Part shown: positions 6,857-17,647 of the stretch, one piece after another | Numbering within the stretch: the stretch's first letter is position 1 | How the letters are laid out: every line of letters begins with the position of its first letter | NCBI RefSeq assembly: GCF_030012525.1 | Contig: NZ_CP124855.1 | Coordinates: forward strand, 2,294,001 to 2,358,000 | Length of the DNA stretch: 64,000 bases | DNA from: Chryseobacterium gotjawalense | GTDB lineage: Bacteria > Bacteroidota > Bacteroidia > Flavobacteriales > Weeksellaceae | Direction of reading: 5' to 3' | The notes under the pieces: generated by a model | Told to the model about the DNA's origin: nothing | The model's input: the letters and a program-made list of their open reading frames with translations, nothing else | The model's database searches: none | Made by a program: the position numbers and the translations under genes

Positions 6857-9055
6857 TTATCTTGTAAACAAAAGTTCTCTGTATTTGGTCAGCGGCCATA
6901 ATTCGTCGTCAACCATCATTTCAAGCTCATCAGATGAGTTTCTGATTTTAGCAAAAAATGGGATAACTTCCTCACAAAAAGAATCGGCCATTTCCCTGGA
7001 ATTGCTTTTTGATTTTGCGTTTTCGATTGCCTCAAGCAGATTTTCCACTTCTACTTTAATGATGCTTACATGTCCTGAAATATCTCTGATGAGACTCATT
7101 TGTTCTTTAGCCAAAGTTTGATACTCGGCATCACCGAAGATTTCTTTTAATCCTTTCACGTTTTCAATGAGGCGGTTCTGATATTTAAGGGCGCAGGGAA
7201 TAATGTGGTTTCTTGCAATATCAGCGATTACTCTTGCTTCAATAGCGATTACTGATGAGTATTTCTCTAATTTAATTTCATTTCTCGCTTCCATTTCACG
7301 ATGGGTGTAAATGCCAAGCTCCTCATATAATGCAATAAATTTCGGATCCAACTCCCTACTCAGAGCCTGAGGCGTTGTTTTCAAGTTGTTCAGTCCTCTT
7401 TTGGCGGCTTCGATGGCCCATTCTTCTGAATAACCATCGCCTTCAAACATAATATTCTTAGAGTCTTTAATGTATTCTCTTAATACATTAAAAATCGCTT
7501 CGTCTTTTTTCAGGCCACTTTCAACCAAAGCATCGACTTCTATTTTGAAAGTTTTAAACTGTTTGGCGGCGATCGCGTTCATCACGGTCATCACTTCTGC
7601 GCAATTCGCAGAGGATCCAACCGCTCTTATTTCAAATTTGTTGCCGGTAAAGGCAAATGGAGAAGTTCTGTTTCTGTCGGTGTTGTCTAGTAAAATATTT
7701 GGAATTTTACCCACCACATTTAACTTAAGGTCTGTTTTTTCTTCAGGAGATAATTTTCCGTCTTTTACTTTTTCAAGCTCTTCTAAAACGCCAAATAACT
7801 GCGAACCGATAAAGGTTGAAATAATAGCAGGAGGCGCTTCATTGGCACCTAAACGGTGATCGTTGCCGGCAGAAGCAATACTCACTCTTAATAAGTCTGC
7901 GTAATCATGGACTGCTTTCAGTGTATTGACGAAGAAGGTCAAAAACTGAAGGTTCTTTTTAGGGTTTTTACCCGGGCTTAAAAGGTTTTCTCCGGTATCG
8001 GTGGCCAAACTCCAGTTGTTGTGTTTTCCGCTTCCATTCACTCCGGCGAACGGTTTTTCGTGGAATAAAATATGGAAATGGTGTTTGTGCGCAACTCTCG
8101 CCATTAAATCCATTAATAATGAATTGTGATCCACAGCGACATTTACTTCTTCAAACATCGGAGCTAATTCAAACTGGTTCGGGGCAACTTCGTTATGACG
8201 CGTCGTTACAGGAATTCCCAGTTGAATTGATTTGATTTCCAGTTCTTTCATGAAGTTCATTACCCGCGTAGGAATAGAACCGAAATAGTGATCGTCTAAC
8301 TGTTGGCCTTTTGCAGGAGAATGCCCCAAAAGTGTTTTTCCGGTAATGACCAGATCCGGCCTTGATTGATACAATGCAGAATCTACTAAGAAATATTCCT
8401 GCTCCCAGCCTAAAGTAGGAATCACTTTCGTTACATTTTTGTCAAAATAAGACCGGCAAATATCAGTCGCAGCTTCATCTACGGCATGTAATGCTCTAAG
8501 CAGAGGCGCTTTGTAATCTAAAGTCTCACCCGTATAAGAAATAAAAATGGAAGGAATGCATAAAGTTGTTCCCATGATGAACGCGGGCGAAGTTGGATCC
8601 CAGGCCGTATAACCACGTGCTTCAAAAGTGTTTCTAATTCCGCCGTTTGGAAAAGAGGAGGCATCTGGTTCTTGCTGAATCAACATTCCCCCGGAAAACC
8701 GGTCAATGGCGCGGTCACTTTCGAATGGAGTAAAAAAGGAGTCGTGCTTTTCTGCGGTAGATCCAGTCAAAGGTTGAAACCAGTGGGTGTAGTGGGTGGC
8801 TCCTTTGCTTATCGACCAGTCTTTCATGGCTACTGCGATTTGATCTGCGACGTCCCTTTGGATTTTCAGTCCGCTTTTAATGGCATTCTGAATGGACGTA
8901 AATGCTTCTTTGGTTAAGTATTCTCTCATCGTTTCTTCTGAGAAAACGTTTTCACAAAAAAGTGAAGATAATTTTGCAGGAACTTCCACTGCATTTTCTT
9001 TTCTGTAATCTTTCTGAGAAAGTAATTCTAGCGCTTTAAATCTTAAATTTGACAT
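6857..9055 (-). CDS. glnN: Glutamine synthetase type III
   Basis: The enzyme makes glutamine from glutamate, ammonia and ATP in the cytoplasm. At 732 residues it has the size of the type III family common in Bacteroidota rather than the 450 of type I. Motifs seen are THYTHWFQPLTG (about residue 87), GWEQEYFLVD (about 216), the ATP-site motif NGSGKHNNWSL (about 340) and AGNDHRLGANEAPPA. The gene is monocistronic with its own terminator. Upstream is an inverted repeat (9112-9128) that could be an operator. No GlnB-type regulator gene is adjacent. Gene naming (glnA or glnN) varies between species. Confidence 0.96.
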   Translation of the reverse strand: MSNLRFKALELLSQKDYRKENAVEVPAKLSSLFCENVFSEETMREYLTKEAFTSIQNAIKSGLKIQRDVADQIAVAMKDWSISKGATHYTHWFQPLTGSTAEKHDSFFTPFESDRAIDRFSGGMLIQQEPDASSFPNGGIRNTFEARGYTAWDPTSPAFIMGTTLCIPSIFISYTGETLDYKAPLLRALHAVDEAATDICRSYFDKNVTKVIPTLGWEQEYFLVDSALYQSRPDLVITGKTLLGHSPAKGQQLDDHYFGSIPTRVMNFMKELEIKSIQLGIPVTTRHNEVAPNQFELAPMFEEVNVAVDHNSLLMDLMARVAHKHHFHILFHEKPFAGVNGSGKHNNWSLATDTGENLLSPGKNPKKNLQFLTFFVNTLKAVHDYADLLRVSIASAGNDHRLGANEAPPAIISTFIGSQLFGVLEELEKVKDGKLSPEEKTDLKLNVVGKIPNILLDNTDRNRTSPFAFTGNKFEIRAVGSSANCAEVMTVMNAIAAKQFKTFKIEVDALVESGLKKDEAIFNVLREYIKDSKNIMFEGDGYSEEWAIEAAKRGLNNLKTTPQALSRELDPKFIALYEELGIYTHREMEARNEIKLEKYSSVIAIEARVIADIARNHIIPCALKYQNRLIENVKGLKEIFGDAEYQTLAKEQMSLIRDISGHVSIIKVEVENLLEAIENAKSKSNSREMADSFCEEVIPFFAKIRNSSDELEMMVDDELWPLTKYRELLFTR

Positions 9056-9350: not shown

Positions 9351-9358
9351 TATATTTG
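9351..9358 (+). promoter_or_regulatory. -7 promoter box for the DUF6909-like gene
   Basis: TATATTTG ends one base before the ATG at 9360. Transcription would therefore start at or after that ATG, which argues for the downstream ATG at 9375 as the true start. Confidence 0.6.
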
Positions 9359-9374
9359 TATGAAATTTTACACT

Positions 9375-11057
9375 ATGGTAAATTCACGAGCAAGAGAAAC
9401 CACTGAAGCAATCGAAAGACTTTATGTTTCTATGCGTCACTTATTCTATCGCGGTTTTTTCAAACCTGCCGGGATCTCCGGAGAAAGCCTCCGGTCACTA
9501 CTTATGATCATCAACCCGGAAATTTATGGAACAATGGGAGTTCCGAACAAAATAGAGTTAGACGGACTTCTGTATGTTTTAGACAGACTTCCGGAAGGGA
9601 TTGAGGAATGCTCATTCATTCATCTTACTTCTGATGAAGGTTTCGACAAAGGAAGCTTCGAAGTTATTGTTCCTAAAAAAAGAAGAAGAAACTGTTATCG
9701 TATCGACGAACATCAAATGAACATCGAAGTTCTTCTGGGTCGTTCTGAAATTTACGATATTCTCACTCACCTTACTTTCCTTTATATTGAAGCGGACAAA
9801 ATCCGCAAACTCGCCTTCCTTTCTGAACGCAGCGACAAACCAAGCAGAGCCTGGAAAATTATCGAAGAAGTTGCAACAGGCGATAAAAAAATGAGCAGAA
9901 AAGAGAAAGAAGTGGCACTGATTCACCTATCTTCATTGTTAGGACGAACCTTTGATGAAACTTTGAACGCTTATAACAGTTTCGGCGATGATAAAAATCC
10001 GGACCGTCTTTTCAAAATCATTTATCATTTAGGAAACGAAAGTTTTAATGATTATAAACAAATCAGAGAAAGAGAAGTTCATTTCTCGGCAATTCTCAGA
10101 GAAAGAGTAGGCCACCATTTCTTTGGCGAAAAATGGGCGAATAAAGTAAAACAGGTTTTAGCAGAAAATAATCTGCAGATGAGACCTTTACATATTATTT
10201 CTGCCAACATGCATTCTGTGAAAAATATGCTTTTTGCAAATGATGCTATCGGGAAAAAAGTGACTAAGAATGTGGACTATAAAATGTATGAAGAAATTTC
10301 CAACAAGAAAACCTTGCAGGAAAAAGTTCTCGTACATTCCCAAGATGCCGGTTTGATTTATATTCACGATCAAAGCGGAAGCAATATCGATGTTCAGATT
10401 ATCGATTTGGCAAAAACCGATTTGAAAAATACACCTTTTGCAGACCTAAATTATTCGGGAGACGATGTGATTATGGTTTTCGATTATGCATTCGGTGAGC
10501 AGGCTTACGAAGTAATGGACGAACTTTTACGTCCTTATGACTATAATGGCGAAATCTACACGATGAAGGTGAAGTCCATTTCGATAATGGGGAAAGCCGG
10601 AATTTTGATGGGCGGAAAAGGAGATATTATGATTCCTACTTCTCACGTATTTGAAGGAACCGCAGATAATTATCCGTTTGAAAATGCTTTGAAATTAGCA
10701 GATTTCGAAGATGACGAATTACGGGCATTCGAAGGCGGGATGGTTACCGTTTTGGGAACTTCTCTTCAGAATAAAGATATTCTCCGTTATTTTATGGACA
10801 CTTCCTGGAAAGCGATTGGGCTGGAAATGGAAGGTGCGCATTATCAGAAAGCCATTCAGGTTGCCTCGAAAATCCGCCACCATATTTCAGAAGATCTTTT
10901 CGTAATGTATGCGTATTATGCGTCTGATAATCCTCTGGAAACTGGTTCTACACTGTCTTCCGGTGGATTGGGACTGACGGGAGTTAAACCGACTTACCTG
11001 ATAACTTTAAGAATATTAGAGAAAATTTTAAAAAGCGGAATAGCTGCTAAGAAGTAA
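9375..11057 (+). CDS. DUF6909-like conserved protein with nucleoside-phosphorylase-like C-terminal half
   Basis: The function is unknown. The 560-residue protein begins MVNSRARETTEAIERLYVSM and belongs to a Bacteroidota family that I recall as DUF6909. It has no signal peptide or membrane segment, so it is probably cytosolic. The first third is helical. The C-terminal third shows GDIMIPTSHVFEGT, TVLGTSLQNKDIL and LEMEGAHYQKA, then YAYYASDNPLETG; the EMEGA and GDI-IPTS patterns resemble the PNP/UDP phosphorylase and nucleosidase superfamily. I infer a divergent nucleoside-binding domain, not an activity. A longer start at 9360 is possible but lies almost inside the promoter box. A strong terminator follows at 11079. 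Confidence 0.75.
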   Translation: MVNSRARETTEAIERLYVSMRHLFYRGFFKPAGISGESLRSLLMIINPEIYGTMGVPNKIELDGLLYVLDRLPEGIEECSFIHLTSDEGFDKGSFEVIVPKKRRRNCYRIDEHQMNIEVLLGRSEIYDILTHLTFLYIEADKIRKLAFLSERSDKPSRAWKIIEEVATGDKKMSRKEKEVALIHLSSLLGRTFDETLNAYNSFGDDKNPDRLFKIIYHLGNESFNDYKQIREREVHFSAILRERVGHHFFGEKWANKVKQVLAENNLQMRPLHIISANMHSVKNMLFANDAIGKKVTKNVDYKMYEEISNKKTLQEKVLVHSQDAGLIYIHDQSGSNIDVQIIDLAKTDLKNTPFADLNYSGDDVIMVFDYAFGEQAYEVMDELLRPYDYNGEIYTMKVKSISIMGKAGILMGGKGDIMIPTSHVFEGTADNYPFENALKLADFEDDELRAFEGGMVTVLGTSLQNKDILRYFMDTSWKAIGLEMEGAHYQKAIQVASKIRHHISEDLFVMYAYYASDNPLETGSTLSSGGLGLTGVKPTYLITLRILEKILKSGIAAKK

Positions 11058-11078: not shown

Positions 11079-11118
11079 AACCCTTTCAGCGACTCAAAAT
11101 GCTGAAAGGGTTTTTTCT
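11079..11118 (+). terminator. Strong rho-independent terminator after the DUF6909-like gene
   Basis: A perfect 12-base stem AACCCTTTCAGC/GCTGAAAGGGTT with a 10-base loop is followed by a T-rich tail, 21 bases past the stop. Confidence 0.93.
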
Positions 11119-14520: not shown

Positions 14521-15063
14521 CTAGAAACGATAACCAATTCCCAGCATTCCTTTTCCTGTAACCGGCGTATCAGAATATTCAGATTTCATCCCAAATCTCC
14601 TGGCAATTCCCATACTTGCTTCGAAAACAATATTTCTTCTGGCAACCCATTTTCCCCCAAAACCAATTCCGGCTCCTATGGTCGTATTCTTCTGATACGT
14701 GTAAGGAGAATAAACACCGGAACCAAAGTAAGTAGTGTACGCGGAATCATTTGATGTGGTGATCGGTATAAAACCTTCCACAAAAAATCCAGAAGCATAT
14801 CCTTTACCAAAATACATTCGGTAATAAGGTGAAATTTGAGATTGCAAACCATCTCCATTGTTTTTGTTATCTAAAAGAACCAAGGCATTAATACCGATAC
14901 CGGAATCTTTATTCAGCAGCCTTTCATAAGATAAATTCAAAGCCGGTCCTGCGATTAATTCAATCGGACTGATAATAATGTCATTTTGTCTTTGGTCAGC
15001 AGTATTTTGTGCCTGAACGCTAAGTGCAAAGAGGAGAGAGGCAATCAGTAAATAGTTTTTCAT
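14521..15063 (-). CDS. Predicted small outer-membrane beta-barrel protein
   Basis: I do not recognise a named family. The product is about 180 residues, starting with a signal peptide MKNYLLIASLLFALSVQAQ, then alternating hydrophobic strands (IELIAGPALNLSYERLL, FFVEGFIPITT, GAGIGFGGKWVARR) and ending in the aromatic residue of GMLGIGYRF. This is the pattern of an eight-strand outer-membrane barrel. The ATG at 15063 is chosen because a perfect promoter box lies 12 bases upstream of it, and the alternative start 33 bases further upstream would fall over that box. Confidence 0.7.
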   Translation of the reverse strand: MKNYLLIASLLFALSVQAQNTADQRQNDIIISPIELIAGPALNLSYERLLNKDSGIGINALVLLDNKNNGDGLQSQISPYYRMYFGKGYASGFFVEGFIPITTSNDSAYTTYFGSGVYSPYTYQKNTTIGAGIGFGGKWVARRNIVFEASMGIARRFGMKSEYSDTPVTGKGMLGIGYRF

Positions 15064-15075
15064 ATTTTTTTTTAT

Positions 15076-15083
15076 CAAATATA
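15076..15083 (-). promoter_or_regulatory. -7 promoter box for the small outer-membrane protein gene
   Basis: Read on the minus strand the box is TATATTTG. It lies 12 bases before the ATG at 15063 and excludes the longer in-frame start. Confidence 0.6.
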
Positions 15084-15128
15084 AAGTTAATTCCAATACG
15101 AAATGTTATTGCAATTAAATTTTTTAAG

Positions 15129-15752
15129 CTATTCGAAATTCATGGACAAAGGCAGTCTGAAACGGTATCGCACCGCTGTTCCATTAATAAAAGCCGGAGC
15201 AAATTTTTCCGGGAGAAGATAAAGTGCGATTTCGGCCTGGCGGTTAAAAGTGAAATTATCTCCTTCTGCTTTTACTGAAGTTATTGACCCATCTCTTTCA
15301 ACAATAAAGAGCAGTTCTGTTCTCATCATTTTATGGTCAGCTAAAACGGCATTGGTATAAAAATGCTCTGCGATCTGCTGGCGCATGATATTGAAACCGC
15401 CCGGGTAATCTGCATTGCTGCTTACTTTAGCTTTTTCCGGATTATTACCGGAAGATGGTGCCTGCTTTTGAAAATGGTTTAAATCTTCCCGTATTTTGAC
15501 CCTTACTAAAGCGTGAATCAAAGCGTTATTCTGAAGACTGTCGAGCTTCTGCATAAACTCGTGAAAATCCTTTTCAACCGTCATTTTATCGGCGGTGGTA
15601 ACTTCACTATCGAATCGTTTCCGGAATTCACTGTTCAGCATGGAACGCTGATAATCAAAATAGTTTTTCACCATTTTAAATTCTTCGTTCTGCTGAGCAG
15701 AAGAAAAAAAGAAAATCAGGAGAAAAAATAAACTTAGCCGTTTTGTGAGCAC
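15129..15752 (-). CDS. Exported protein with TonB C-terminal-like domain
   Basis: The protein of about 207 residues has a signal peptide (VLTKRLSLFFLLIFFFSSAQ when started at the GTG at 15752) and a central coiled region. Its C-terminal domain (LLFIVERDGSITSVKAEG ... RYRFRLPLSM) has the pattern of the TonB C-terminal fold found in many Bacteroidota periplasmic proteins. It lacks the Pro-rich membrane-spanning form of a true TonB. The longer frame to 15848 would put 32 poorly fitting residues before the signal peptide, so the GTG start is preferred. The real role is unknown. Confidence 0.6.
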   Translation of the reverse strand: MLTKRLSLFFLLIFFFSSAQQNEEFKMVKNYFDYQRSMLNSEFRKRFDSEVTTADKMTVEKDFHEFMQKLDSLQNNALIHALVRVKIREDLNHFQKQAPSSGNNPEKAKVSSNADYPGGFNIMRQQIAEHFYTNAVLADHKMMRTELLFIVERDGSITSVKAEGDNFTFNRQAEIALYLLPEKFAPAFINGTAVRYRFRLPLSMNFE

Positions 15753-15864
15753 AACAATTTTTTTTGTAAAGTAAAAATAATTAAAATAAATGAGAAGTTT
15801 TGTTATTGAAGTTAGAAACAGTTTTTCAAGGTAAGAAAGGTTTTTCAAGAAAACGCCAAATCCT

Positions 15865-16708: not shown

Positions 16709-17647
16709 TTAAATAATGAATTTATCGCTTATCGATTTGTGTTCATGAACCATTTTCATCACGTCTGCAAAGAGTTCTGCACAAGACAATACTTTTATTT
16801 TTGAAGATAATTCTGTTTTGATAGGAATTGTATCGGTAACAATCACTTCTAAAAGTTTGGAGTTCTCAATGTTTTCATAAGCTTTCCCCGAAAGGACACC
16901 GTGTGTTGCCATTGCCCGGACAGTTTTCGCTCCGTTAGCCATCAGAATATCTGCTGCTTTGCAGAGGGTTCCCGCCGTATCAATCATATCATCGATAAGG
17001 ATTACATTTCTTCCTTCTACGTGGCCAATCAAAAACATTTCTTCGATAACGTTGGCTTTCTTTCTTTCTTTGTAGGCGATTACCACATCTGCCCCAAGAT
17101 GACTTGCATAGTTTTTTGCTCTTTTTGCACCGCCCATATCTGGTGAAGCAATGGTAAGATTCTCCAACTTTAACTGCTGGATATACTCGATGAAAATCGT
17201 AGAGGCATAGAGATGATCTACCGGAATTTCAAAAAATCCCTGGATTTGGTCTGCGTGTAAATCCATGGTCATCACACGGGTTGCGCCAGCTGCGGTGAGT
17301 AGGTTTGCAACCAGTTTTGCGCCGATTGGAGCTCTTGGTTGGTCCTTTCGATCCTGTCTTGCCAGACCGTAATAAGGCAAAACTACCGTGACACTTTTTG
17401 CAGATGCTCTTTTGGCTGCATCAATCATGAGCAGTAACTCAAGAAGATTGTCTGCCGGTGGAAAAGTGGATCCAATCAAAAAAACCCGCCCACCACGAAC
17501 AGATTCATCCAATACGGGTTCGAATTCCCCATCACTAAATTCCTGGAAATTAATTTTCCCCATTTCTTGCCCATAAAATTGAGCAATTTTTTCCGCCAAA
17601 ACTTTGCTCGTTCTGGTAGAGAATAAATAACTTGCCTGATCAGCCAT
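16709..17647 (-). CDS. prs: Ribose-phosphate pyrophosphokinase
   Basis: The enzyme makes PRPP from ribose 5-phosphate and ATP, feeding purine, pyrimidine, histidine and tryptophan synthesis. At 312 residues it has the usual length. Motifs seen are [49 protein letters not shown] (with the catalytic His in the flexible region) and the PRPP-binding loop [14 protein letters not shown]. It has its own promoter box and is followed by rplY. Confidence 0.97.

Follow-up and report, generated by a model that had tools for sequence, protein, structure and literature searches.

DUF6909 of flavobacteria, a predicted PNP-superfamily protein that probably stands in for AMP nucleosidase

The closest described systems to the protein analysed here are AMP nucleosidase (Amn), which we compared in its short Bacteroidota type (NCBIfam PRK07115/TIGR01721) and its E. 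coli type (TIGR01717), the trimeric PNP-I (PNPH), and the group of uridine phosphorylase (UP), DeoD and MTAN. For Amn, a published study names only M404, E405 and D428 as active-site residues conserved across PNP relatives, and places R381 and W383 at the phosphate and the base (PMC9584410). The window, a 64,000-nucleotide stretch of the Chryseobacterium gotjawalense chromosome, contains a gene for a DUF6909 protein. Like Amn, this protein has a predicted PNP fold, with the Met-Glu pair, the catalytic Asp, and the G[KH].G.L and GD...L stretches in the same order, and like the long Amn it has an extra N-terminal domain. Unlike Amn, it shows no pairwise BLAST similarity (BLASTP against E. coli Amn gave no match), lacks counterparts of Arg381 and Trp383, has an N-terminal domain without detectable kinship to that of Amn, and is encoded at a different genomic position. 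With PNP-I it shares the predicted fold and alignable GD.MI..H and G...[EQ] stretches, but Gln465 replaces the Glu of GPxFET, and PNP-I co-occurs with DUF6909. UP, DeoD and MTAN are its nearest PDB folds, at Z 18-19 and tied with Amn, whereas their identity is about 10-15% and they are without the N-terminal domain; DeoD and a UP-like protein sit beside DUF6909 in the window's genome.

The gene occupies positions 9375..11057 of the window (+ strand, stop codon included) and encodes 560 amino acids. Two in-frame ATGs open the reading frame, at 9360 and 9375, and since homologs begin at the second, 9375 is the better start; the reading frame that the first-pass annotation had placed there is real, and its start is this better one. 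Directly 5' of the ATG at 9360, the stretch TATATTTG (9351-9358) fits the Bacteroidota -7 element, TAnnTTTG; read in this way, transcription would begin past 9360, which again favours the 9375 start. The window protein matches Pfam DUF6909 (PF21850) at E 1.9e-59, with 201.9 bits against a curated cut-off of 27, an entry whose function is given as unknown, and no NCBIfam model matched it. In the open-access literature we found no paper naming DUF6909, and among the papers listed on AMP nucleosidase in Flavobacteria, Flavobacterium or Bacteroides, or on its displacement, none dealt with this family. A hairpin resembling an intrinsic terminator, with a 13-bp stem followed by a T tract, lies at 11079..11112 (+), and judging from it the transcript appears to stop right after this gene. 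The gene is flanked by a type III glutamine synthetase gene (GSIII_N, Gln-synt_C; window 6857-9055, - strand) in divergent orientation and, downstream, by an M1-peptidase gene. A cluster of 37 ORFs with a beginning like that of this synthetase was met in the DNA flanking the loci fetched.

The first-pass annotation had described the C-terminal half as nucleoside-phosphorylase-like, and the structural evidence bears this out. An AlphaFold2 model built with 48 homologs (pLDDT 85.9, pTM 0.80) gave, by Foldseek against the PDB, 328 matches at E <= 0.001 with a best E of 4e-7; the best 50 of these 328 were all nucleoside phosphorylases or nucleosidases, and the top rows were uridine phosphorylase, MTAN and Amn. 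Residues 252-558 (10128..11048, +) were delimited from the model, Foldseek and VIA as a PNP/UDP-phosphorylase-like catalytic domain, and over about 200-243 residues of this region VIA-align returned Z 17.9-19.4 among the matches listed, with Amn structures at 18.3 (2guw_B) and 18.2 (1t8r_A). The region is thus unambiguously PNP-like in the model (Z 18-19), the comparison gave no unrelated fold, and a PNP fold for the C-terminal half is, as a model-based assignment, almost certain. Uridine phosphorylase, DeoD, MTAN, futalosine hydrolase and Amn were practically tied in Z, so that the substrate cannot be told from the fold alone.

At the sequence level, DUF6909 scores in Pfam as only a remote relative of the PNP_UDP_1 family (PF01048). 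Weak PF01048 matches were found in 23 of 48 DUF6909 homologs (best E 0.0044), which made it the second most often matched of 24736 Pfam families, the next unrelated family reaching 3/48; the window protein itself had no PF01048 match at E 10. A PF01048 scan of 41 genomes gave two weak matches inside DUF6909 ORFs (G123, E 0.0098; G119, E 0.03), both below the cut-off of 25.1 bits (16.6 and 15 bits). Direct sequence search of the PDB found nothing real (best E 0.14), and a profile search reached a best E of 0.41. Profile-profile comparison, which the first-pass annotation had proposed, was made with hhalign. Against 24 Amn sequences, the C-terminal half aligned over 109 columns with every motif in register (GKAGIL/GHCGGL, GDIMIP/GDYVLA, LEMEG/IDMES, SDNPL/SDKPL) and a score of 21.95, compared with 12.2-20.4 for 15 decoy families and 14.6 for reversed Amn; the decoys were 15 of 16 neighbour clusters, the remaining cluster being DUF6909 itself. 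The PNP-I profile, made from 6 of 31 fetched loci by a strict motif filter, scored 25.4, above the Amn profile, and paired GDIMIPTSH with ADVMIINDH and GTSLQN with GPTFET, while a four-sequence DeoD/UP profile scored 14.1, at decoy level. The registers match the fold and the known sites, but the hhalign values are low in absolute terms (probability 1-3%, E 0.014-0.055); the single E-values are marginal, and the weight of this comparison lies in the agreement of the registers with fold and sites.

Three motifs had been reported to follow each other in PNP-superfamily order, and all three are present and conserved beyond chance. We counted conservation over 173 distinct homologs, an earlier 155-row alignment having included near-copies. 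The first motif, GDIMIPTSHVFEGT (residues 416-429; 10620..10661, +), aligns with GDLILP... of Amn and ADVMIINDH of PNP-I; the second, TVLGTSLQNKDIL (residues 458-470; 10746..10784, +), places Gln465 on the Glu of PNP-I GPxFET; and the third, LEMEGAHYQKA (residues 483-493; 10821..10853, +), contains Met485-Glu486, the predicted ribose-binding pair. The conservation of the EMEGA and GDI-IP segments, on which the earlier reading depended, holds among the homologs. A fourth motif, SDNPL (residues 517-521; 10923..10937, +), lies at the expected place after LEMEGAHYQKA and aligns its Asp518 with the catalytic Asp428 of Amn, and GKAGIL (residues 406-411; 10590..10607, +) aligns with Amn GKCGGL. Invariant in 173/173 were R103, R105, R109, D111, H132, G246 and H248 ahead of the catalytic domain, N278, D370 and G374-Q376 in the first part of the catalytic domain, and further on K407, K415, D417, E427, D431, N432, G461-N466, E484-G487 (including M485 and E486), K492, R501 and S517-L521 (including D518). 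The counterparts of Amn M404, E405 and D428, namely M485, E486 and D518, are therefore all kept. In the remote alignment, Amn R381 and W383 fall on Gln465 and a gap, and the aligned stretch reads GTSLQN in all 173 homologs, with no Arg or Trp. Two further sites may have Amn counterparts: the invariant His248 of a GHH..GE motif (10116..10118, +) may correspond to the RHYTG phosphate motif, and Asn278 of SAN.HS, after the first core strand (10206..10208, +), to Asn205. H248, N278 and the Gly-rich loop after SDNPL come in the same order as Amn His188/Tyr189, Asn205 and Lys436, although the profile alignment stops short of them.

The N-terminal domain (residues 1-245; 9375..10109, +) is helical with short strands and has many invariant basic residues, among them those of the nearly invariant KRRRNCYRID (residues 102-111; 9678..9707, +), in which R103, R105, R109 and D111 occur in every homolog. 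It had been described as unrelated and helical; helices do predominate and there was no significant structural or profile match, but four short strands are also present. With this domain alone as query, nothing matched in Foldseek at E 0.001, and none of the VIA rows exceeded Z 3.7. Several of the weak VIA rows were PNP-fold chains, and the Amn rows among them (7uwq and 2guw) align through their catalytic part, which we took as chance. Descent from the Amn N-terminal domain was considered and, given these searches, found no support. A Foldseek row of 493 columns (2guw_C, rmsd 21.7) had hinted at such kinship, which the follow-up did not bear out. Using hhalign, the domain scored 18.5 against the N-terminal domain of long Amn, with decoys up to 21.7, and PF10423 stayed below its cut-off in all 118 genomes scanned, though some hold long Amn. 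The domain is accordingly one with no detected relative, and these searches do not prove a new fold. Our guess is that it may serve as a regulatory (allosteric) or lid domain.

DUF6909 was found in 97 of the 100 genomes of the window's family, in 53/345 genomes of a phylum sample and 32/395 of a class sample, and in none of 14 control genomes, the sample that bears on the restriction to Bacteroidota suggested by the first-pass annotation; the named hits among the best 80 of 564 include Chryseobacterium, Elizabethkingia, Riemerella, Bergeyella, Polaribacter and Tenacibaculum. Its tree shows 6 changes over 6 groups (minimum 5), thus following family boundaries with few exceptions (f98 inside f2; G805 of f8 with f54), so that its inheritance is mostly vertical and transfer only occasional.

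DUF6909 and Amn, the latter assigned here by homology, exclude each other in nearly all genomes sampled. In each of the three samples compared (phylum, class and family f8), genomes with both genes were looked for by eye among the matches listed. We used a profile (A3) built from 15 Bacteroidota sequences, two tested members of which pass an NCBIfam Amn cut-off; three Amn proteins scored 370-837 bits against whichever Amn model fitted them best. Among the 395 genomes of the class sample, 260 have Amn, 32 DUF6909, none both and 103 neither, with 21 co-occurrences expected against 0 seen (hypergeometric P 8e-17, a value that ignores relatedness). The absence of both genes from 103/395 genomes implies that the activity is dispensable in many. 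In the phylum sample of 345 genomes, a strong Amn match was present in 133, DUF6909 in 53 and both in 0; 141 genomes match Amn at E 0.001, but 8 of them, in which even the best match is weak (E 1e-14 to 3e-4), were not counted as Amn genomes, and three of these 8 (G200, G295 and G341) carry DUF6909.

Four families (f5, f8, f54 and f98) contain both DUF6909 and Amn genomes, divided by genus. For family f8, sampled as 62 genomes with one per genus, 31 genomes have DUF6909 only, 27 Amn only, 1 both and 3 neither (totals 32 and 28; Fisher P 5e-13). The sole genome in which both occur, G828, has a completeness of 82% and a contamination of 5%; the DUF6909 in it is a 71-aa fragment cut off by the edge of a 4.4-kb contig and was omitted from the 173-sequence alignment. 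In an rpoB tree covering 59 of the 62 genomes (G798 and G821 had no match, G799 a partial one), DUF6909 changes 11 times and Amn 12 times. Over 500 random pairings on the best tree, the 11 independent pairs had Amn changing in the opposite direction in 8-10 cases and in the same direction in 0 (sign test, P 0.002-0.008). When only well-supported branches were kept, 3-4 pairs were left, with 2-4 opposite, which puts P 0.05 out of reach, and one pairing in 200 had one pair changing the same way. As a control, PF01048 at 145 bits or more was present, among the matches listed, in 30/32 DUF6909 genomes and 22/28 Amn genomes of f8; the exclusion is specific to Amn, because other PNP-fold enzymes co-occur freely with DUF6909.

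Since DUF6909 almost never shares a genome with Amn, it probably does Amn's job. We propose that it is a PNP-superfamily N-glycosidase standing in for Amn, a reading that we consider probable, in which AMP would be cleaved to adenine and ribose 5-phosphate and hydrolysis would be the reaction type. In this form DUF6909 is probably a divergent two-domain nucleotide nucleosidase of predicted fold, with AMP as its likeliest substrate. The nucleotide-binding or nucleosidase function suggested by the first-pass annotation gains support here, and the exclusion data narrow it to replacement of AMP nucleosidase. Judged by sequence, DUF6909 falls outside the Amn family, and its Amn-like working is what we infer. 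Mechanistically, the catalytic half would hold the nucleotide, Met485-Glu486 would grip the ribose, Asp518 would protonate the leaving base, and some of H248, K407, K415, K492 and R501 may hold the phosphate, over which the N-terminal domain may close unless it regulates activity. In human PNP, the wild type uses 6-oxopurines and the Glu201Gln:Asn243Asp variant cleaves adenosine-based substrates (PMC2799393). In DUF6909, Gln465 of the GTSLQN loop would read the 6-amino purine. Six bacterial PNP-I rows already carry Asp, by motif match, at the second position of the double mutant, which presumably equals human Asn243, which leaves the Glu to Gln change as the informative one for Gln465. It is also possible, if on balance doubtful, that nucleotide nucleosidases evolved separately a second time within the PNP superfamily, in the form of DUF6909, whose allosteric or lid domain would be new, and that DUF6909 and Amn replaced one another many times in Bacteroidota; the protein might then act on, or be gated by, a nucleotide other than AMP or ATP.

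Several other explanations have to be weighed against replacement of Amn. DUF6909 might act, as an N-glycosidase or phosphorylase of the PNP superfamily, on a substrate other than AMP (adenosine, MTA/SAH, GMP/IMP, or a pyrimidine or modified nucleotide) and in doing so merely make Amn unnecessary. The fold is equally close to UP, DeoD, MTAN and Amn, Amn Arg381 and Trp383 are unmatched, the N-terminal domain is unique, and the genome of the window encodes PNP-I, DeoD and a uridine-phosphorylase-like protein, none of them identified as MTAN, all of which would suit such an enzyme; the exclusion, however, concerns Amn specifically and not other PNP-fold enzymes, and we regard this explanation as unlikely.

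That the PNP fold is catalytically dead or serves as a sensor, binding a nucleotide and regulating something through the N-terminal domain, is clearly less probable still. The large, invariant N-terminal domain with no detected relative and the lack of a constant neighbour gene suggesting a pathway would agree with it, but all 173 homologs keep M485, E486, D518 and the residues around them unchanged, as in an enzyme, and exclusion with an enzyme would be left unexplained. That the exclusion is an accident of lineage, with DUF6909 a gene of Flavobacteriales and Amn the gene of the others, seems very improbable: although DUF6909 is near-universal in the window's family and its tree is mostly vertical, f5, f8, f54 and f98 each mix DUF6909 and Amn genomes, and among the 62 genera of f8, which divide 31 to 27, the rpoB tree has about 11 switches.

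Replacement of Amn by DUF6909 would give a concrete, testable enzymatic role to a domain present in almost every genome sampled from the window's family and in many other flavobacteria, and would explain how these genomes manage without Amn. It looks as though proteins of equal function were exchanged repeatedly within a single fold superfamily, unnoticed by sequence annotation, and a model of purine metabolism drawn from current annotation would miss an AMP-cleaving step in these bacteria.

An in-place gene swap was considered and rejected, as the neighbour cluster c3 is present in 7/10 Amn loci versus 0/8 DUF6909 loci, and around the DUF6909 loci we found no constant neighbour gene giving a pathway. 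Cluster c3 is a recurrent small protein beside Amn (145 aa in L307), divergently oriented in seven loci (L294, L295, L297, L299, L302, L307 and L308). In the window, a ribose-phosphate pyrophosphokinase gene (16709-17647, -) adjoins a ribosomal L25 gene and lies 5.6 kb from the DUF6909 gene, with no shared operon; PRPP would be required for adenine salvage. Two window proteins, at 14521-15096 and 15129-15848 (both -), had no Pfam match. In another genome, a PNP_UDP_1 match (G127:C1:541550-542275) lies within a 1036-aa open frame, possibly a fusion protein.
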